Shown: piece by piece, positions 3,601 to 23,220 of the stretch
Layout: every line of letters starts with the position of its first letter
Numbering within the stretch: the stretch's first letter is position 1
Source: Streptomyces sp. CB01249
GTDB lineage: Bacteria > Actinomycetota > Actinomycetes > Streptomycetales > Streptomycetaceae
NCBI RefSeq assembly: GCF_001905735.1
Contig: NZ_LISW01000001.1
Location: 740,603-804,602, forward strand
Length of the DNA stretch: 64,000 bases
Reading direction: 5' to 3'
The notes under the pieces: generated by a model
Databases searched by the model: none
What the model saw: only the letters and a program-made list of their open reading frames with translations
What the model was told of the DNA's origin: nothing
Position numbers and translations under genes: made by a program

Positions 3601-6600
3601 CGGTGGGACAGCTCGGCGATCAGAGCAGGTTCCGGCTTCTGGCCGGGCTGGAGAACGGTGGCACCGCCGTGGAGGAGTGCGCCCCAGAATTCGAGACTGA
3701 AGGCGTCCCAGGACACCGGCGAGCACTGAAGGAACACTTCATCCGGTCCGAAGTTCCCGTACGTCTGCGCGGTGACCGTGGAGACGAGGTTGCGGTGCGA
3801 GGACAGGATGCCCTTGGGCCGCCCGGTGGACCCCGACGTGAACATCACGCACGCCACGTCGTCCCCCGTGACCGGCACACCCAGGTTGTCCTCCGCCGCA
3901 TCGGCCGGCGCCCCGCCGGAGCACGAGACCACGCGCCAGGGGCCAGTCACGCGCTGCCCGAGGACGTCGTCTGTGACGAGCAGGGCGATGCCCGCATCCC
4001 GCGCGGCCGAGCGAAGGCGCTCGTCCGGGAAATCGGGGTCGAGCAGGGTGTAACCGGCGCCGGTCTTGAGTACGGCGATGAGCGCGGCGGCGAAGGTGGC
4101 GTTGCGTTCCACGAGGATGCCGGCGAGCTGGCCCCGGCCGAGGCCGTGTGCGCGCAGGTGGTGGGCCCAGCGGTTGGCGGTGGCGTTGAGCTCCGCGTAC
4201 GTGAAGCTGTTCTCGCCGTCGATGAGCGCGACGGCCTCCGGGGACCGGGCGGCCTGGTCCTCGAAGCGCGCGACCAGCGAGGTTTCGTCGATGTCGGCGG
4301 TGGTCCCGGCCCAGGGCCCGAGGATCAGCCCCCGCTCGGCGGCCGACAGCACCTCCACGTCTCCGATGTGTGCTTCCGGGTCGTCCAGGGCCTGGCGCAG
4401 CACCCCGCCGAGCACGGTCACCATGCGCTCCACGGTGGCCCGGTCGAACACGTCCTCCGCGAAGACGACCACCCCGTGCAGGCCCCGGCTGTCGTCCGAC
4501 CGGAGCAGGAACTCCAGGTCGAACTTGGCCGAGCCGTTGGTCAGCCCCCGCACCTCGGCCGTGTGGCCGCCCAGCCCCAGCACCGGAGCCTCCCCGGCCT
4601 CCAGGGCGAGGCAGATTTGGAAGAGGGGGTGGCGGGCGAGTGTGCGGGTGGGGTTGAGGGTGTCGAGGACGAGGTCGAAGGGTGCGTCTTGGTGGGCGAA
4701 GGCGTCGAGGTCGGTGGTGCGGACGTGTTCGAGCAGTTCGCGGAAGGTGGGGTTGCCGTCGGTGTGGGTGCGCAGGACGAGGGTGTTGACGAAGAAGCCG
4801 ACGAGATCGCGCAGTGCCTCATCGGTGCGTCCGGCGACGGGTGAGCCGATGGCCAGGTCGGTGCCGGCGCCGAGGCGGGTGAGCGCTGCGGCCAGGGCCG
4901 CGTGGACGACCATGAAGGGGGTGCACCCTTCGGCCCGGGCCAGCTCGCCGATGCGCTCGAACAGGTCGTCACCCAGGGCCACTTCGACCTGACCGCCCCG
5001 GTGCGAGGCCACCGCCGGACGGGGCCGGTCGAGACTCAGCCCGTGCTCCTCCGGCAGTGCGCCCAAGGCGTCCCGCCAGAAGGCGAGTTCGCTGGAGAGC
5101 ACGCTGTACGCGTCGTCGGCCGAGCCCAGCACCCGCTGCTGCCATACCGCGTAGTCCGCGTACTGCACGGGCAGCGGCTCAAGCACGCTTCCCTCGGCCC
5201 CGGCCAGCCGTGCCTCGTAAGCCCGGGCCAGGTCATCGAAGAAAACACCCGCCGAGCGGCCGTCCGTCGCGATGTGGTGGAAGAGCAGGAACAGGACGGG
5301 GTGCCCGTCTTCGAGGTCGAACAGGGCGGCCCGCAGCGGGTTCCCGGTCCTGAGGTCGAACCGGTGCCGGGTGGCCGCGTCCAGGTCGCCGTCCAGCGAG
5401 GCCGCCGTCGACGTCCGGCGCTCGATGACGACCCGGGCTCCGGCGGCCGGCTGGACGCGCTGCCGAGGCTCCCCGTCGCCCGTCGTGAACACGGTGCGCA
5501 GCGGCGCGTGGCGCTCCACGACGTCGTTGAGTGCGGCTTCCAGGGCATCGACGTCCGGGGTGCCGTCCAGGCGTACGGCCATCGGCACGTTGTACGCGGT
5601 GCTCCCGCCGTCCAACTCGGCGAGCAGCCACAGGCGGCGCTGGGCGAACGAGGCGGGGCTGTCCGGCCCGTCGCCCGCCTCGCCCGCGACCAGGGGCGGC
5701 AGCGCGGGCCGCCCCTTCAACGAGGCGATGTACTGCGCGAGGCGTGCGGGGGTGGGGTGCTGGAACACGTCCCGGATGGTCAGCCGCACGCCCAGCACAT
5801 CGGCCATGTGGTTGGTGAGGCGGGCCGCCAGCAGCGAGTGCCCGCCGTGGGCGAAGAAACTGTCGTCCACACCCACCGGCTCCGAGGTGCGCAGCACCCG
5901 GCTGAAGAGGGCAACCGTCACCTCTTCCAGCTGCGTCTGCGGCACCCGCTCGGTACTCACCACCGCGACCGGCTCGGGCAGCGCGCGCTTGTCGATCTTC
6001 CCGTTCGGCATGAGGGGGAAGCGGTCGAGCGGGGTGAGGTAGGCGGGGACGAGGTGTTCCGGAAGCCGGTCGGCGAGGTGGCGGCGGAGCTCTGCCGGGT
6101 CGGCGGTGGTGACGACGTAGGCGGAGAGCTGGTCCTGGTGCTTGGTGACGACGGCCTGGGAGACCTTCGCGTGAGTGAGGAGCGCGGCTTCGACCTCGGC
6201 GGGTTCGATGCGGAAGCCGCGGATCTTGATCTGGTGGTCGGCGCGGCCTTCGTAGTGGAGGCGTCCGTCGTGGTCGAAGTGGGCGAGGTCGCCGGTGCGG
6301 TAGAGGCGGGTGCCGGGCTTGCCGTACGGGTTGGGTACGAAGCTGGTGGCGGTGAGGTCGGGGCGGTTGAGGTAGCCGTGGGCCAGGCCGTCGCCGGATA
6401 CGTACAGCTCACCGGTGGCACCCGGTGCGCAGAGCCGGAGCGCGGTGTCGAGCACGTACAGCGGCTTGTTGACGAGTGGTGTGCCGATGGGGATGGCGGT
6501 GTGGGGCTCGTCGGCGGGCTCGATGGTGTGTGTGGTGGCGTAGATCATCGCCTCCGCCGGCCCGTACCCGTTGACCACGTTGATGCCCGGCCTGGCGCTG

Positions 6601-14035: not shown

Positions 14036-17000
14036 TCAGCCGGCGCCCAACAGCCGCCGGGTCTCAGCGAGTTCCCGCTTCATCCCCCGGCTCGTGAAGA
14101 CCTCCACCGCGGGGGCCAGCAGTTCACGGGAACGCCCCGGCTCCTCCTCGCCGAGCAGCCGCGCCAGATCCAGGCGGGCCAGAGCGCCACCGCCGAAATC
14201 CATGATCTGCTCCCGGGCCGCGACGGCCCGGTCGAAGAAATACCTCGCCCGGTCGGGCCGCCCCATCAGGACGAACGCCTGGCCGAGGTCCCGCAGCAGA
14301 TGCCCCTCGCCGATCACATCACCGGAATCCCGGCACAGCTCCAGGACCTCCGTGAACGTCAGCACCGCGAGGTCCAGCTCACCCCGCTCCAGCAGCAGTT
14401 GGCCCACCCGGCGCAGGGTCCGCGCCCGGCCCCCGAGATAGCCCACCCCGTCGTATATCTCCAGCGCCTCGTCCAACTGCGCCTGCGCCACGTCCACGTC
14501 ACCCCGGCGCATCCGGATGTGGGCGCTCTGCGTCAGCACGATCGCCCGCCCCACCACATCACCGGCCCGGTCGAAATCCGCCAGCGACCGCCCGTACAGA
14601 TCGAGGGCGGTGTCGTCGTCGCCGTTCGTCCGCGCGATCAGGGCCATGTCACGCCGGCACAGCGCCTCGCCCTGCGGTTCGTCCAGTGCCTGGAAGACGT
14701 CGAGCGCCGAACTCAGCGCCTGGCGCGCCATGTCGAACTCGTTGCGGCTCATGTACAGCGAACCCAGCGACGCCCGCACGGCGGCCGTCCCCCGCAGATT
14801 GCCCGCCTTGCGCACGGCGGCCAGCGCCCGTACGTGGGTCTGCTCCCACAGGTCGTAATGGCCCCGCACCTCGAACAACGTCACCAGGGTCGTCGCCAGA
14901 TTCCAGCTGACGTCGTGCAGGCCCTCGTCGGCGGCGTGCTCCACCATCCCGCACAGGGCACCCTGCTCCGCGTCGAACCAGGCCAGCGGATCGGCGAGCA
15001 GGTCACTCGTGCACGACGGGGGCGGCGCCCAGCGCGGGGCGTCGCCGTGCAGGACGGTGAAGTCGCCGCCGTACACCTTGCGATGGGCCTCCTGCGCCAG
15101 ATACATCCACCCGCCCGCCATCCGCACGAGCGCGTCCCGGCGCAGCTCCGGCGCGTCCTGCGCGGCCAGCTGCTCGCGCGCGTAGACGCGGATGATCTCG
15201 TGGAACTGGTACCGGTAGCCGCCGGTCCGCTCCACCCCGACCACGTCCAGCATCTGCATGTCGACCAGCGGTTCCAGCAGGTCCGACGGCACGGGCCGGT
15301 CGTCGTCGAGCAGCGCGCCCGCGAGCCAGCCCGGCAGTGTCGGCGTCCGCGCCATGGAGAGCAGCCGCAGCAGCCCCCGGTCCTCGGGCGCCAGACCGTT
15401 GTACGTGAGCGACAGGCTGGCGCGCATCGTCATCTCACCGTGCGCCAGCTCATCCAGCCGGTGCCGCTCGTTGGCCAGCCGGTGCACCATCGACGCGAGC
15501 GTCCAGTGCGGGCGGGCGGCGAGCCGGGCCGCCACGATCCGCAGCGCGAGCGGCAGCCGTCCCACCGTACGCACCAGGGCCTCGGCCGACGCGGCCTCGC
15601 CCTCCACCCGCTCCTCCCCGATGATCCGGGACAGCAGCTTCAGCGCCCGCTCCTCGTCCAGGACGTCCAGCTCCACGCGGTGCGCGCCCGGCAGCGCGGT
15701 CAGCCGGGCCCGGCTGGTGACCAGGACCGCGCAGTCCCGGCTCCCCGGCAGCAGCGGCTGCACCTGGCTTTCCGACGCGGCGTCGTCCAGGACCACCAGG
15801 AGGCGGCGGGAGGCGAGCCGGGTGCGGTACATCTCCGCCCGCTCGTCGAGCGAGTCCGGGATCAGCTGGCCCGGGATGCCCAGGGCCCGCAGGAAGCGGC
15901 CCAGCACCTCCGAGGTGGTGGCCGGGGTCCCCGTGCCGCGCAGATCGCAGTACAACTGGCCGTCGGGGAACCCCGTCTCCGCCAGCCGGTGCGCGAGATT
16001 CACGGCCAGCGTGGACTTGCCGGTGCCCGGCTTCCCGGTGATCACGGCAAGACCGACCGCCTTGCGCTCCCGGCCACCGGTCAGCGCCTTCTCCAAGACG
16101 GCGAGCTGGGCGTCGTCCGCCACGAAGTCCGAGGTGGCGGCGGGGAGCTGCTGCGGGCGGGCGTCGTGCGGCTGCGGTTCGGCGGCGGGGGAGTCCTGGG
16201 CGGCGGCCCTGGACACCGGCTCGGCGCTCGGGGCGGCGGCGCGTTCCGCGTCGGCACGGCCTGGCTCGCTGCGGTCGATGGCGACGGCCGGGCGCCGGGG
16301 CGCGGCGGCCTCGACTGCGCTCTCGCCGGGGTCGGCGCTCCCACCGGCGGACCGGGGCGCCTGCCCCCGTACCGGCGGAGGCAGTTCCCCGGCGAGGATG
16401 GCCGCCTCCAACCGGCGCAGTTCCCGGCCCGGTTCGAGGCCCAGCTCCTGGTCGAGGATCCGGCGCCCGTCCCGGAACGCCTCCAGCGCCTCCGCCTGCC
16501 GGCCCGACCAGTACAGGGCGCACATCAGCTGGCCCCGGAGCCGCTCCCGCAACGGGTTCTCGTGGGTGAGGAGTTGGAGCTCACCCACCAGCCGGTCGTG
16601 GCGGCCGAGCTCCAGCTCCAACTGCATCCGCAGCTCGACGGCGCTCAGCCGCTCCTCGTCCAGCTGGCGCGCCTTGTTGGCCAGGGGGCCGCTGTCCAGG
16701 CCGGTCAGGGAGTCCCCCTGCCACAGCGCCACCGCGGACTTCAGGAGCGCCACCGCCTTCTCGGACTCGCCGTCGTCGCGCTGCCGCCTCGCCATCGCGA
16801 CCAGGCCGGTGAAGAGCAGCGAGTCCACGTCCCCGGTGTCCACGTGCAGGACGTATCCCGGCGGCCGGGTCGATATGGAGACCGTGCTGTCCGCACCGGC
16901 CAGGAGCTTCCGCAGCCGGGACACGCAGATCTGGACCTGGGTGCGGGCGGTCTCCGGCGGGCTGTCCTCCCAGATGAGGTCCACCAGGTAGTTCGTGCTG

Positions 17001-17251
17001 ACCACCCGGTTTGCTTCGAGCAGCAGGGCGGCGAGGATGACCTCCTGACGGCCCGGCGGCACCCGCAGCGGCCCCTCCTTGCCTCGCACCTGAAGCGGGC
17101 CCAGCAATTGGAAGGGTGGTCGCGCCGCGCCCGGGGCATCCTGGACCGTGTGCGTCGTACCCTCGGCCACCGAGACCCCCAGCTCGTAAGCGCGTTGATG
17201 CTCCGGGATCAACGTCCCCAAAGTTTTCACAACCCTCACGCATCTGTCCAT
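14036..17251 (-). CDS. AfsR-type SARP transcriptional regulator (OmpR-like DNA-binding, BTAD, NB-ARC, TPR)
   Basis: Large antibiotic regulatory protein of 1,071 residues, close to AfsR in size. Residues about 46-120 form the OmpR-like winged helix (PFQLLGPLQV...LRVPPGRQEVILAALLLEANRVVS). The BTAD runs to about 290 (LVGELQLLTHENPLRERLRGQL). A low-complexity Ala/Pro linker leads to NB-ARC with Walker A GKPGTGKST near residue 404 and Walker B LLVVLDD. The C-terminal third carries TPR-like repeats. The start is uncertain: several ATG/GTG/TTG codons lie in frame in the first 30 residues with weak ribosome sites. The location suggests control of the NRPS; AfsR orthology cannot be judged here. Confidence 0.93.
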   Translation of the reverse strand: MDRCVRVVKTLGTLIPEHQRAYELGVSVAEGTTHTVQDAPGAARPPFQLLGPLQVRGKEGPLRVPPGRQEVILAALLLEANRVVSTNYLVDLIWEDSPPETARTQVQICVSRLRKLLAGADSTVSISTRPPGYVLHVDTGDVDSLLFTGLVAMARRQRDDGESEKAVALLKSAVALWQGDSLTGLDSGPLANKARQLDEERLSAVELRMQLELELGRHDRLVGELQLLTHENPLRERLRGQLMCALYWSGRQAEALEAFRDGRRILDQELGLEPGRELRRLEAAILAGELPPPVRGQAPRSAGGSADPGESAVEAAAPRRPAVAIDRSEPGRADAERAAAPSAEPVSRAAAQDSPAAEPQPHDARPQQLPAATSDFVADDAQLAVLEKALTGGRERKAVGLAVITGKPGTGKSTLAVNLAHRLAETGFPDGQLYCDLRGTGTPATTSEVLGRFLRALGIPGQLIPDSLDERAEMYRTRLASRRLLVVLDDAASESQVQPLLPGSRDCAVLVTSRARLTALPGAHRVELDVLDEERALKLLSRIIGEERVEGEAASAEALVRTVGRLPLALRIVAARLAARPHWTLASMVHRLANERHRLDELAHGEMTMRASLSLTYNGLAPEDRGLLRLLSMARTPTLPGWLAGALLDDDRPVPSDLLEPLVDMQMLDVVGVERTGGYRYQFHEIIRVYAREQLAAQDAPELRRDALVRMAGGWMYLAQEAHRKVYGGDFTVLHGDAPRWAPPPSCTSDLLADPLAWFDAEQGALCGMVEHAADEGLHDVSWNLATTLVTLFEVRGHYDLWEQTHVRALAAVRKAGNLRGTAAVRASLGSLYMSRNEFDMARQALSSALDVFQALDEPQGEALCRRDMALIARTNGDDDTALDLYGRSLADFDRAGDVVGRAIVLTQSAHIRMRRGDVDVAQAQLDEALEIYDGVGYLGGRARTLRRVGQLLLERGELDLAVLTFTEVLELCRDSGDVIGEGHLLRDLGQAFVLMGRPDRARYFFDRAVAAREQIMDFGGGALARLDLARLLGEEEPGRSRELLAPAVEVFTSRGMKRELAETRRLLGAG

Positions 17252-20170: not shown

Positions 20171-20638
20171 TCAGCCGGTCCCGGCGGCGATCCAGGCGTC
20201 GAGCTGTTCGCGGGTGGTGGTGGGGTCCGCGATCAGCCCGGCCAGTTCGTCGTCGGCGTGATGGCGGGTCGAGACCGCAGGGCAGCGCCGGCACGCCTCG
20301 ACGCCGCTCTGCGTCCACCACTGGCACTTCGTCCGCAGGTGGCAGCGCGGCACGGCCGCCTCGACCACCCTGGGCGCGGCGGCGACCACCCGCTCCACGA
20401 GGGCGCAGTCGTCGCCGCGGCGGTTGGCGCAGCCACTGACGCAGTGCGAGGCGAACCGCAGGATGCGCCGGGGGTCGATGCCCTCGGGCACGTCGCCCAG
20501 CACCTCGGAGGCGGGCACCGGGTCGGCCAGATAGGCGACGCGGCCGCCCTGCCCGGACCGCACACCCAGGACGACCGCCTCGGGCGCATGCGCGTCACCG
20601 CTGGGACACCAGCTCGTCGGAGACTTGTCCTTGTCCAC
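20171..20638 (-). CDS. Cysteine-rich protein of unknown function, 155 aa
   Basis: I do not recognise the family. The protein has eight cysteines: one in SWCPSG near the N-terminus, three in CVSGCANRRGDDC, and four in CHLRTKC...ACRRC. This spacing suggests an iron-sulfur or zinc site. There is no signal peptide. It follows the small secreted peptide gene by 19 bp on the same strand, so both are probably one transcript. Confidence 0.7.
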   Translation of the reverse strand: MDKDKSPTSWCPSGDAHAPEAVVLGVRSGQGGRVAYLADPVPASEVLGDVPEGIDPRRILRFASHCVSGCANRRGDDCALVERVVAAAPRVVEAAVPRCHLRTKCQWWTQSGVEACRRCPAVSTRHHADDELAGLIADPTTTREQLDAWIAAGTG

Positions 20639-20657
20639 GGTCCTCGGCCCCTTCGCG

Positions 20658-20897
20658 TCAGCAGGCGGCCCGGGCGGCCGCGCCGTTCTGGGTGATGTAG
20701 CCGGTCGGGTTGATGTCCAGGGCGGCGCCGGACTCCTGCTCGGCGGCCTGCTGGATGCCCGCCTTCAGCTGCTCCAGCGAGGTGACGCGTTCGACGGGGG
20801 CGGCGGTGGCGGTGGCCGACCCCGCCACCAGGACACCGGCGGCGACGAGGGCCACGGCGGCGGAGGCCGCCGCCGTACGGGACGAGTTCTTCTTCAT
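20658..20897 (-). CDS. Small secreted peptide with C-terminal cysteine, 79 aa
   Basis: The ATG of MKKNSSRTAAA is chosen because AAGGGAG lies 5 bp upstream; an upstream in-frame ATG has no such site. A Lys-rich N-terminus, an Ala/Val core and SATATAAP form a type I signal peptide of about 32 residues. The predicted mature part is about 47 residues, with one Cys as its very last residue. It is the first gene of a pair with the cysteine-rich protein. No family is recognised; precursor peptide or envelope factor are both possible. Confidence 0.7.
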   Translation of the reverse strand: MKKNSSRTAAASAAVALVAAGVLVAGSATATAAPVERVTSLEQLKAGIQQAAEQESGAALDINPTGYITQNGAAARAAC

Positions 20898-21023: not shown

Positions 21024-21212
21024 CTAGGGGAGCGCGACGGTGCGGCGGGGCGCGGCGGTCAGGCGGAGGCCGACCTCGATCAGGGTCCACCCGAGGACGG
21101 TGCGCAGGGGCCGGGGGGCCCGGGCGGAACGGGCGAGGCGGTACTCCTCTGCCTCGGCGTGGAGTTCGGCGGCGCGGAGCTGGTGCAGGGCGAGGTGGGC
21201 GTGCGCGTGCAT
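21024..21212 (-). CDS. Small hypothetical protein, 62 aa
   Basis: The start MHAHAHLALHQL follows AAAGGAG, which overlaps the stop codon of the upstream ArsR gene; the gap is 13 bp, so the two are co-translated. The product has a charged helix (ELHAEAEEYRLARSARA) and a mildly hydrophobic C-terminal stretch (TVLGWTLIEVGLRLTAA) that may associate with the membrane. Function unknown. Confidence 0.65.
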   Translation of the reverse strand: MHAHAHLALHQLRAAELHAEAEEYRLARSARAPRPLRTVLGWTLIEVGLRLTAAPRRTVALP

Positions 21213-21225
21213 GGGTGGTTCTCCT

Positions 21226-21828
21226 TTACTCGGTGGTGAGGGGGAACGCATGGGTGTGGACGCGTACGCGGGCGCTGTCGCCCTCGTCCTCGTCGGTGAT
21301 CAGGTCGCGGTACTCGTTGAGGAGCGCGTGCATCTTCTCGATGAGCTCTCCGGCGAGCGTGGGCGTCAGCCGCAGGGTCGCGCTGCTCATGTCCCAGGTG
21401 CGGTTCCACTCCTCGGGCCAGTTGGTGCGTTCGCCGAGCCAGGACGACAGGTCCCGGGCCTGGGTGAGCGCGACCTCCTGCAGATACATCTCGGCGGCAC
21501 CGCGCACCTCCGGGCTGGAGTGGTTGAGCAGCGAGTCGTCGAACCGCAGCCCCTGGCTCGCCGCCTGCCACCAGCGCTCCCGCCCCTTGCCGTGCTCGGG
21601 GGCGTCCGTGATGAAGCCGTGCGCCGCGAGCTGCCGCAGGTGGTAGCTGGTGGACCCGCTCGACTCACCCAGTTTCGCGGCGAGCTGGGAAGCGGTGGCC
21701 GGCCCGTCGAAGCGCAGGGTGTCCAGCAGCTGCATGCGCAGCGGATGGGCGAGCCCCCGCAGCGAGCGGGCGTCGAGATTGCGGATCAGTCCGTCGGGCT
21801 GTTCTTCCATGGCCTCAACGTTAGCCAT
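21226..21828 (-). CDS. ArsR-type winged-helix transcriptional regulator
   Basis: About 200-residue regulator. The N-terminal winged helix-turn-helix reads LRGLAHPLRMQLLDTLRFDGPATASQLAAKLGESSGSTSYHLRQLAAHGFI, typical of ArsR-fold repressors with a SMARC-type effector-free C-terminal helical domain. No metal-binding cysteine motif is seen. The start could be this ATG, the ATG six codons later (MEEQPDGL), or a TTG upstream. Dyad-symmetric sites sit over its own start, which suggests autoregulation. Confidence 0.88.
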   Translation of the reverse strand: MANVEAMEEQPDGLIRNLDARSLRGLAHPLRMQLLDTLRFDGPATASQLAAKLGESSGSTSYHLRQLAAHGFITDAPEHGKGRERWWQAASQGLRFDDSLLNHSSPEVRGAAEMYLQEVALTQARDLSSWLGERTNWPEEWNRTWDMSSATLRLTPTLAGELIEKMHALLNEYRDLITDEDEGDSARVRVHTHAFPLTTE

Positions 21829-21874: not shown

Positions 21875-21942
21875 CGATTTCTTTGGACCCCGGCGAGAAC
21901 CCGCCCATGGGCACTGCCCTGCTACGTGAGAGGGTCGAGGGC

Positions 21943-23220
21943 GTGAGTGAGACACCACCGAACACCCTGCAATACCGCTTCGACGGCCCCGAGGACGCGC
22001 CGGTCCTGGTCATCGGGCCCTCACTCGGCACCACCTGGCACATGTGGGACCGCCAGATACCCGAGCTCGTCCGGCACTGGAGAGTCTTCCGGTACGACCT
22101 CCCCGGTCACGGCGGCGCCCCCGCCCGGCCCGCGACCGCCGTGGCGGAGCTGGGGGACCGGCTCCTCGCGACGCTCGACGGGGTCGGGGTCCAGCGCTTC
22201 GGGTACGTGGGGTGCTCCATCGGCGGGGCGATCGGCGCGGACCTGGCGCTGCGGCACCCGCACCGGGTGGCCGCGCTCGCCCTGGTGGCGTCCTCCGCCC
22301 GGTTCGGCAGCGCCGACGAGTTCCGGCAGCGCGGCGTCATCGTGCGTACGAACGGCCTGGAGCCCATGGCGCGCACCGCGCCCGAGCGCTGGTTCACGCC
22401 CGCCTTCGCCGCGGCGCAGCCCGCCATCGTGGAGTGGGCCGTCCAGATGGTGCGGACCACCGACCCTGGGTGCTACATCGCCGCCTGCGAGGCCCTGGCC
22501 GCCTTCGACGTCCGTACGGAACTGAGCCGCATCCCCGTCCCCACCCTCGTCGTGGTCGGGGCGGAGGACCGGGTGACCGGGCCCGGCGACGCGCGCACCC
22601 TGGTCGCGGGGATACCGGACGCCCGGCTCGCGCTGGTGCCCGCGGCCTCGCACCTGGCGCCCGTCGAGCAGCCCGGGGCGGTCACCGACCTCCTGCTCAC
22701 CCACTTCTCCACCGCCTGGCAGGACACCCAGGCGGCCATCCCGATGCCCGACTCCGTGCCCCGGCTCTCCGCCCCCGTCCAGCCCCTCGCGGAGATCGCC
22801 CCCGCAGGGCCGGCCCCCGAGGCGGCGGCCGGCGGGCGGCCCGACCCGTACGCGCCGGGCATGCGGCTGCGGCGCGAGGTGCTGGGCGACGCCCAGGTGG
22901 ACGGGGTCCTGGCCGCCACCGACGACTTCACCGAGGACTTCCAGGAGCTGGTCACCCGGTACGCCTGGGGCGAGGTGTGGAGCAGGGAAGGGCTGGACCG
23001 GCGCACCCGCTCCACCGTCACGCTCACCGCGCTCGTCGCCTCCGGGCGGATGGAGAGCCTGGCCGCGCACACCAGGGCCGCCCTGCGCAACGGACTCACG
23101 CCCACCGAGATCCGGGAGGTGCTGATGCAGACGGCCGTGTACTGCGGGGTCCCGGCCGCGAGCGCCGCCTTCACGATCGCGCAGTCGGTGATTCGGGCGG
23201 AAACGACCCCGCCCGCGTAG
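21943..23220 (+). CDS. pcaL: Fused 3-oxoadipate enol-lactonase / 4-carboxymuconolactone decarboxylase
   Basis: PcaL-type fusion of about 425 residues catalysing two consecutive steps of the protocatechuate branch. Residues about 1-250 are an alpha/beta hydrolase: nucleophile elbow GCSIGG, acid in VVVGAEDRVTG and histidine in AASHLAPVEQP. Residues about 305-425 are the CMD domain (MRLRREVLGDAQVD...GEVWSREGLDRRTRSTVTLTAL...VYCGVPAASAAF). The GTG is chosen because GAGAGGG lies 8 bp upstream; the frame is open to 21883. It is divergent from the ArsR gene. No other pca genes are adjacent. Confidence 0.9.
   Translation: MSETPPNTLQYRFDGPEDAPVLVIGPSLGTTWHMWDRQIPELVRHWRVFRYDLPGHGGAPARPATAVAELGDRLLATLDGVGVQRFGYVGCSIGGAIGADLALRHPHRVAALALVASSARFGSADEFRQRGVIVRTNGLEPMARTAPERWFTPAFAAAQPAIVEWAVQMVRTTDPGCYIAACEALAAFDVRTELSRIPVPTLVVVGAEDRVTGPGDARTLVAGIPDARLALVPAASHLAPVEQPGAVTDLLLTHFSTAWQDTQAAIPMPDSVPRLSAPVQPLAEIAPAGPAPEAAAGGRPDPYAPGMRLRREVLGDAQVDGVLAATDDFTEDFQELVTRYAWGEVWSREGLDRRTRSTVTLTALVASGRMESLAAHTRAALRNGLTPTEIREVLMQTAVYCGVPAASAAFTIAQSVIRAETTPPA

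Follow-up and report, generated by a model that had tools for sequence, protein, structure and literature searches.

Two adjoining genes of Streptomyces sp. CB01249 form a real, conserved two-gene unit: the first encodes a small secreted, precursor-like peptide, the second a protein that has eight cysteines. Both lie on the minus strand of the window, the 64,000-nucleotide stretch of contig NZ_LISW01000001.1 analysed here, in a host genome of 7.6 Mb (13 contigs) that holds the pair as one copy. The pair may be an overlooked way to make or handle modified peptides: we give an even chance to its being a minimal unit like those for ribosomally made, modified peptides (RiPPs), with a probable Fe-S protein that would bind the peptide and modify it, or else handle or escort it.

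The two genes of the window

The peptide gene (20658..20897, minus strand, like all features of the pair given below) encodes 79 residues, and an ORF homologous to this secreted type lies beside 45 of the 72 eight-cysteine proteins that we compared. Read by eye, residues 1 to about 33 (20799..20897) form a Sec-type signal peptide with a hydrophobic run and an A-x-A, and cleavage near residue 32-33 would leave about 47 residues whose only Cys is the last one, Cys79 (20661..20663). The alignment of the 45 secreted homologues delimits a conserved segment at residues 37-55 (R..SLEQL...I..A...E; 20733..20789), which is probably a helix, and a stretch Asn-Pro-Thr-Gly-Tyr-Ile (20694..20711), which is the window version of a more widespread Pro/Val-hydrophobic-Gly stretch.

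The eight-cysteine gene (20171..20638) has a GTG start and follows the peptide gene after a gap of 19 nt that contains a GAGG. Its product of 155 residues carries Cys at positions 11, 66, 70, 78, 99, 105, 116 and 119, and no signal sequence was seen. According to the alignments, its C-terminal extension (DDELAGLIADPTTTREQLDAWI; 20189..20254) occurs for the most part only in relatives whose peptide is of Sec type: the peptide-less L034-L036 do not have it, and in most relatives with another kind of peptide none is apparent. An earlier note, made from the letters of the window, had described a signal peptide plus about 47 residues with a lone C-terminal Cys and, 19 bp further on, a cytoplasmic protein with eight cysteines. 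Both ORFs are present on the minus strand with that spacing, and the lone Cys and the count of eight agree with our reading, as do the signal sequence and the cytoplasmic place, both of them read by eye. A promoter and terminator scan returned none.

The same note had called neither protein recognisable, and this held throughout the family and fold searches. Neither protein matches above the curated cut-off in Pfam or NCBIfam, PHROGs and PADLOC gave zero matches for both, and the peptide has no match to the NHLP leader (TIGR03793). Profiles of the eight-cysteine protein found nothing significant among PDB sequences (two matches at E 1.5-1.6 in one search, zero in the other). AlphaFold gave a moderate model of the window protein (pLDDT 78.5, pTM 0.50) and a model of a distant member with pLDDT 78.8 and pTM 0.65; when these two were compared with PDB folds (Foldseek, VIA-align), no matching fold was found for either. 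A search of open-access literature, mostly by title or abstract, found no description of such a gene pair.

Linkage of the pair in Streptomyces

The closest relatives of the host, judged by the eight-cysteine protein, are Streptomyces. A scan of one genome per species yielded 17 Streptomyces loci in which this protein has 60-95% identity, and in 17/17 a short ORF with a signal sequence lies immediately 5' of the eight-cysteine gene, in the same orientation and order. In an even draw of 199 Streptomyces genomes, the eight-cysteine protein was found in 22. Fifteen of these hold close forms (16 loci, E 7e-67 or better), and the other seven hold distant ones, among which L034-L036 are without a peptide, L037 has a 252-aa protein downstream and L038-L040 have a peptide of cytoplasmic type.

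We also searched the 199 genomes with a profile of the peptide, built from 18 peptides beside eight-cysteine genes. There were 17 matches with E below 1e-7, of which five are members of the profile (G000, G116, G147, G162:C23 and G168) and twelve are not; 16 of the 17 adjoin the 16 close eight-cysteine loci. In the lone exception (G167, locus L081) the peptide gene is followed by the first eight-cysteine codons, which run into another gene: a deletion took out the partner and the remnant was kept. Weaker matches mostly cover the signal part only, and three that were read are unrelated proteins. The earlier note would have taken independent occurrence of the homologues in most genomes as a refutation; the close forms do not occur independently, since all 16 eight-cysteine loci are accompanied by the peptide and 16 of the 17 peptide loci by the eight-cysteine protein.

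In eight close pairs, dN/dS is 0.13-0.29 for the eight-cysteine gene and 0.07-0.76 for the peptide gene. Conserved order and purifying selection speak against spurious high-GC ORFs as the origin of the pair, and this reading was rejected. The eight-cysteine protein is kept better than the peptide, with a mean column identity of 66% versus 42%.

Among 18 loci compared, the pair alone is common to all. The most widespread other family, as delimited with a simple ORF caller, occurs in 6/18 loci, mostly close relatives. A downstream metallophosphoesterase gene, considered as a further part of the unit, is present in 5/18 loci, again close relatives, and was rejected, as was the ArsR-like gene at 21226-21810, which is found only in the window and L003. 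The nearest called genes in 34 loci are mostly unlike one another except inside closely related groups, and no exporter gene was seen next to the Streptomyces pairs.

Conserved cysteines and putative metal sites

All eight cysteines are invariant in 58 aligned sequences and in an alignment of 21 sequences that spans four phyla and goes down to 24% identity, and they are kept in all 72 proteins compared; cysteines that are not conserved, the other refutation named in the earlier note, were thus not what we found. Because the pattern used to collect the family demanded eight Cys, the profile and tblastn matches that failed it were inspected individually. L144 looks like a frameshifted copy whose peptide is still there. 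The copy in L126 is unannotated and degenerate, with the loss of one Cys or more. A contig end truncates L077, where the cysteines that are left are conserved, and L042, L078, L079 and L142 are fragments or noise. A spurious pattern match in L016, L053 (identical to L008) and duplicates were left out; L067, where the reading ends early after the cysteine part and a peptide was not found, was retained.

Beyond the cysteines, the only residues invariant in both large alignments are P12, R61, R102 and W107, while S13 and A115 are each invariant in one of them (A115 in the 21-sequence set). The cysteines fall into two blocks, Cys66-x3-Cys70-x7-Cys78 (20405..20443) and Cys99-x5-Cys105-x10-Cys116-x2-Cys119 (20282..20344). 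From this arrangement we infer two four-Cys metal sites, the second block forming site 2 and the first forming site 1, with Cys11 of an N-terminal CPS motif (20606..20608) as its putative fourth ligand. In distant members both blocks follow the pattern C-x4/5-C, with a W no more than two residues later and a G and a C after it (as in CVQDSCEHWSGKQC and CAIRAECRWFAQNGRDAC), and this likeness, seen by eye, hints at an internal duplication. A conserved set of possible Cys ligands, as expected of an Fe-S protein, is present, and the eight-cysteine protein is probably one; the cysteines may instead serve zinc or disulfides. The C-terminal [2Fe-2S] motif of FhuF has adjacent Cys-Cys and a C-x10-C-x2-C spacing. 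Cys105, Cys116 and Cys119 of the window protein share this spacing, but adjacent Cys-Cys is a feature of FhuF that the eight-cysteine protein does not have, and Pfam reported no FhuF match.

Conserved parts of the secreted peptide

The alignment gives the window type of peptide a precursor-like layout of signal sequence, conserved segment and variable tail. An Ala at alignment column 42, in the signal peptide, is kept by 44/45 secreted homologues, and the segment that follows the signal conserves R (42/45), L (41/45), A (45/45) and E (40/45). Further on comes a Gly, aligned in 36/45 and invariant in the first 18 peptides, which is preceded two columns earlier by Pro in 28 and Val in 11 of the 45; the end after this Gly is variable. 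The tail has no conserved Cys, Ser or Thr.

The last residue is a Cys, and also the sole Cys of the final 50 residues, in 17/45 secreted homologues; another six have Cys elsewhere in those 50 residues and 22 have none there. With 17 cases the terminal Cys is a real recurrent feature and no requirement, so that the weight placed on it in the earlier note was only partly right, and we rejected it as the defining feature of the peptide. The more general conserved parts are the Arg...Leu...Ala...Glu segment and the Pro/Val-hydrophobic-Gly stretch. Of the 41 representative peptides, 21 contain the strict form P-hydrophobic(1-3)-G and 20 do not, while shuffling gives 8.0; the pattern was picked after inspection among related sequences and is thus a pointer only. 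Its excess is seen in the secreted peptides (14/26 versus 4.1 shuffled), and in the non-secreted ones it is not clearly above expectation (7/15 versus 3.9, p 0.055).

The wider family

With broader profiles, the eight-cysteine protein was reported in 30/297 Streptomycetaceae genomes and 5/17 genera, two of these genomes (G661 and G814) being noise. It was also found in 9/374 genomes of a class-level sample, and in a phylum-level sample in 3/396, of which G374 is noise. A tblastn search of plasmids added relatives in Agrobacterium, Nostoc, Spirosoma and Polymorphobacter; the members outside Actinomycetota are known from plasmid records only. By our reading, a small peptide or precursor gene adjoins 66 of the 72 eight-cysteine proteins, upstream in 64 and downstream in L037 and L124.

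In a tree of the 72 proteins, with peptide types assigned by reading, a supported set (100/98) of 50 contains all 45 with a Sec-type peptide, one with a 45-aa peptide and four that are peptide-less, and a second supported set (98/94) of 17 has mostly cytoplasmic peptides of about 80 aa. A few members are unresolved, and there are many long branches, that of L124 being the longest. Peptide type tracks the tree, with 10 changes versus 25.3 when shuffled, a difference to which near-copies contribute. Six of the 72 proteins have no recognised adjacent peptide; three of these (L034-L036) are inside the window's clade, and there the eight-cysteine gene comes after a LigB-type dioxygenase gene. A profile of the cytoplasmic peptide type, built from nine peptides beside eight-cysteine genes, gave six strong matches in 150 genomes, all of them members of the profile and 6/6 beside an eight-cysteine gene, and five weak matches that are unrelated on reading. 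No homology between the secreted peptides and the other types was demonstrable (hhalign probability under 2%).

Three distant relatives stand in a RiPP setting. In Nostoc sp. C057 a 233-aa protein carries the eight-cysteine domain at its C-terminal end; its gene is directly 3' of that for an NHLP RiPP precursor (110 bits with TIGR03793, where the cut-off is 50.9) ending in AGG-IIRQPIGLVLDSLS, and the same stretch has Nif11 precursors, a TOMM leader-binding protein, SagB and a radical-SAM maturase. In Spirosoma oryzicola the gene comes after a 76-aa peptide, together with a DUF7005 protein and two NHLP bacteriocin exporters; the leader of this peptide ends in LDAVSGG, is of Gly-Gly type by eye and scores 13.1 bits with TIGR01847, below the cut-off of 15.7. 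In Polymorphobacter its neighbours are a peptide ORF of 83 aa and a radical-SAM gene, the product of which is nearest to cyclophane maturases, below their cut-offs. Directly 5' of the peptide and eight-cysteine genes of L137 lies a subtilase gene (4475-6520), a candidate leader protease. Upstream of the eight-cysteine gene of Agrobacterium vitis only an unnamed CDS was found.

A possible role for the pair

The RiPP-like explanation, to which we give the even chance stated above, would run as follows. The 155-aa protein would fold around two four-Cys metal sites, probably [4Fe-4S], one formed by Cys11, Cys66, Cys70 and Cys78 and the other by Cys99, Cys105, Cys116 and Cys119. In the cytoplasm it would bind the peptide by its conserved helical segment and make a covalent change in the tail around the Pro/Val-hydrophobic-Gly stretch, the terminal Cys perhaps acting as target or ligand in the subset that has one. 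The peptide would then exit via Sec and lose its signal peptide, which would make a dedicated exporter or protease gene needless. In the distant relatives the same protein family would serve precursors with NHLP, Gly-Gly or cytoplasmic-helical leaders, and the Streptomycetaceae form would have a Sec signal in place of leader and exporter. What we infer in this scheme is the metal, the assignment of the cysteines to two sites, the binding, the modification, the order of events and the product.

In RiPP systems the precursor gene stands beside the gene of its modifier, and the pair shows this as gene linkage only. No known class of RiPP-modifying enzyme is present in the unit, the eight-cysteine protein being without a family match, and the modification is predicted only; for these reasons we class the pair as working like a RiPP system, not as a proven member. 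A tail with no conserved Cys, Ser or Thr counts against the RiPP-like reading, as do peptide types of no demonstrable homology and the 6/72 proteins that are peptide-less. In Nostoc and Polymorphobacter, moreover, the precursor could instead be the substrate of other modifying enzymes encoded there.

The small size of the eight-cysteine protein and its few invariant non-Cys residues leave no conserved catalytic residue evident beyond the cysteines, and it could therefore be a binder. This would suit a metal-stabilised escort, which we hold to be unlikely: the protein would bind the peptide helix, keep the peptide soluble or harmless and deliver it to Sec or an NHLP exporter with no covalent change. 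The helical segment is indeed the best conserved part of the exported peptide, and L034-L036, which lack a peptide, also lack the C-terminal extension; however, relatives lie in RiPP clusters, and the conservation of eight cysteines across phyla would be hard to explain for a pure escort. That the peptide is instead an antibacterial helix with a hydrophobic tail, from which the eight-cysteine protein shields the producer, we judge quite improbable. Such a bacteriocin would account for small exported peptides with a patchy distribution that includes plasmids, and one relative lies beside bacteriocin-type exporters, but the supposed immunity protein is far better kept than the peptide both in identity and, mostly, in its lower dN/dS, and has no visible membrane segment or signal sequence (by eye). 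For immunity genes it is an unusual pattern to be better conserved than their peptide.

Peptide signalling, in which the exported peptide is re-imported or sensed and its receptor is the eight-cysteine protein or a neighbouring HTH-TPR regulator, seems to us very improbable. A regulator that reads as HTH-TPR lies directly 5' of the pair in L031 and L032, and an annotated helix-turn-helix protein 5' of the 45-aa peptide in L125 and L126; the nearest genes in the other 32 of 34 loci are unlike such a regulator, those of L006 and L062 being TPR-like without an evident HTH. The three options of the earlier note were peptide modification, redox and metal sensing. Modification gains support from the RiPP precursors and exporters beside distant homologues. 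A metal or redox system, with a secreted peptide that binds or buffers metal outside and an eight-cysteine protein that senses or stores it inside, is in our estimation improbable, even though 17/45 peptides have the single terminal Cys, the ArsR-like regulator gene lies upstream in the window, and bufferins, described in the excerpt of PMC12452194 as Sec-exported metal-binding RiPPs, offer a precedent. Against it, Cys is absent from the last 50 residues in 22/45 peptides, and metal sensing draws little support from the context, since the ArsR-like gene is in 2/18 loci and no metal-resistance or efflux gene recurs beside the pair in the 18 and 34 loci compared.

Comparison with known systems

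Among the closest likenesses are bufferins and other MNIO-modified RiPPs with Sec signal peptides, which, in the excerpted text of PMC12452194, also have a small unit with the gene of a Sec-signal precursor beside that of a cytoplasmic metal protein, and in which the same modifier family also has precursors without a signal. The precursors of bufferins carry Sec signals, and that text credits bufferins alone with a demonstrated use of Sec in the organism that makes them; by this analogy, a Sec signal replacing leader and exporter would be rare but known. Unlike bufferins, the window pair has no MNIO or DUF2063-type partner, which Pfam and NCBIfam found absent among the pair and seven further window genes, and its peptides have no conserved core Cys motif. 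In DybA/DybH, as given in the excerpt of PMC12636315, a C-terminal motif is what a modifier of ChrH type (an MNIO) recognises, and its substrates may differ at the N-terminus and may even have signal peptides there. The likeness is that a single modifier family serves substrates whose N-termini differ; the differences are the protein family and the motif, CPACGMG in those systems versus, in the window type, the Pro/Val-hydrophobic-Gly stretch with its putative role. The NHLP and Nif11 RiPPs with their exporters, as covered by the excerpt of PMC2887384, resemble the settings of the Nostoc relative, which follows an NHLP precursor, and of the Spirosoma relative with its Gly-Gly leader and NHLP exporters. 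They differ from the window, where the peptide has no NHLP match, and from Streptomyces pairs, which have no exporter beside them; that excerpt makes no mention of the eight-cysteine protein.

It is possible, and in our view rather doubtful, that the eight-cysteine proteins are a new, SAM-free class of iron-sulfur peptide-modifying enzymes in at least four phyla, which would act on a Pro/Val-hydrophobic-Gly core behind N-termini that can be exchanged for one another (a leader of NHLP type, a helical one of cytoplasmic type or a Sec signal). The Streptomycetaceae product would then be exported by Sec, as a further case of Sec-exported RiPPs and the first without an MNIO. If the RiPP-like reading is right, a two-gene unit overlooked by genome mining for known enzymes would make exported modified peptides in about one tenth of the sampled Streptomyces (22/199 with the eight-cysteine protein), and Cyanobacteria, Bacteroidota and Proteobacteria would have other forms of it. 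Peptide biosynthesis would thereby gain a new metal-protein family and a further kind of Sec-exported RiPP.

Other genes near the pair and its relatives

Between the peptide gene and the ArsR-like gene of the window lies an ORF for a 62-aa protein (21024-21212, MHAHAHLAL...), rejected as part of the unit because it is found, among the loci compared, in the window and L003 only. Further along, 21883-23220 encodes a fused 3-oxoadipate enol-lactonase and carboxymuconolactone decarboxylase (PcaDC, above the cut-off). On the other side, the gene at 14036-17251 codes for a 1071-aa regulator of AfsR/SARP type, which scores 550 bits where the AfsR cut-off is 1430; close relatives keep this gene downstream of the pair. 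On its downstream side the pair often borders polyketide-type or phosphopantetheinyl transferase genes (L026, L027, L059, L060, L028, L029 and L127), as read by eye and, in L127, as annotated.

Among the relatives, two Streptomyces plasmids encode a 45-aa peptide without a signal sequence that ends in MAALSAC (L125, 5813-5950; L126, 4849-4986), in the order helix-turn-helix regulator, peptide, eight-cysteine gene, the last being degenerate in L126. The eight-cysteine gene of L034-L036 (L048, 6403-7576, and L049) adjoins or overlaps the end of the LigB/DODA-type dioxygenase-like gene. In L070 and L146, which have no recognised peptide, a small protein that looks PASTA-like by eye is encoded 5' of the eight-cysteine gene. 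The DUF7005 protein of the Spirosoma RiPP cluster (L121, 4460-5614) contains an HECTH motif and is possibly an HEXXH enzyme.
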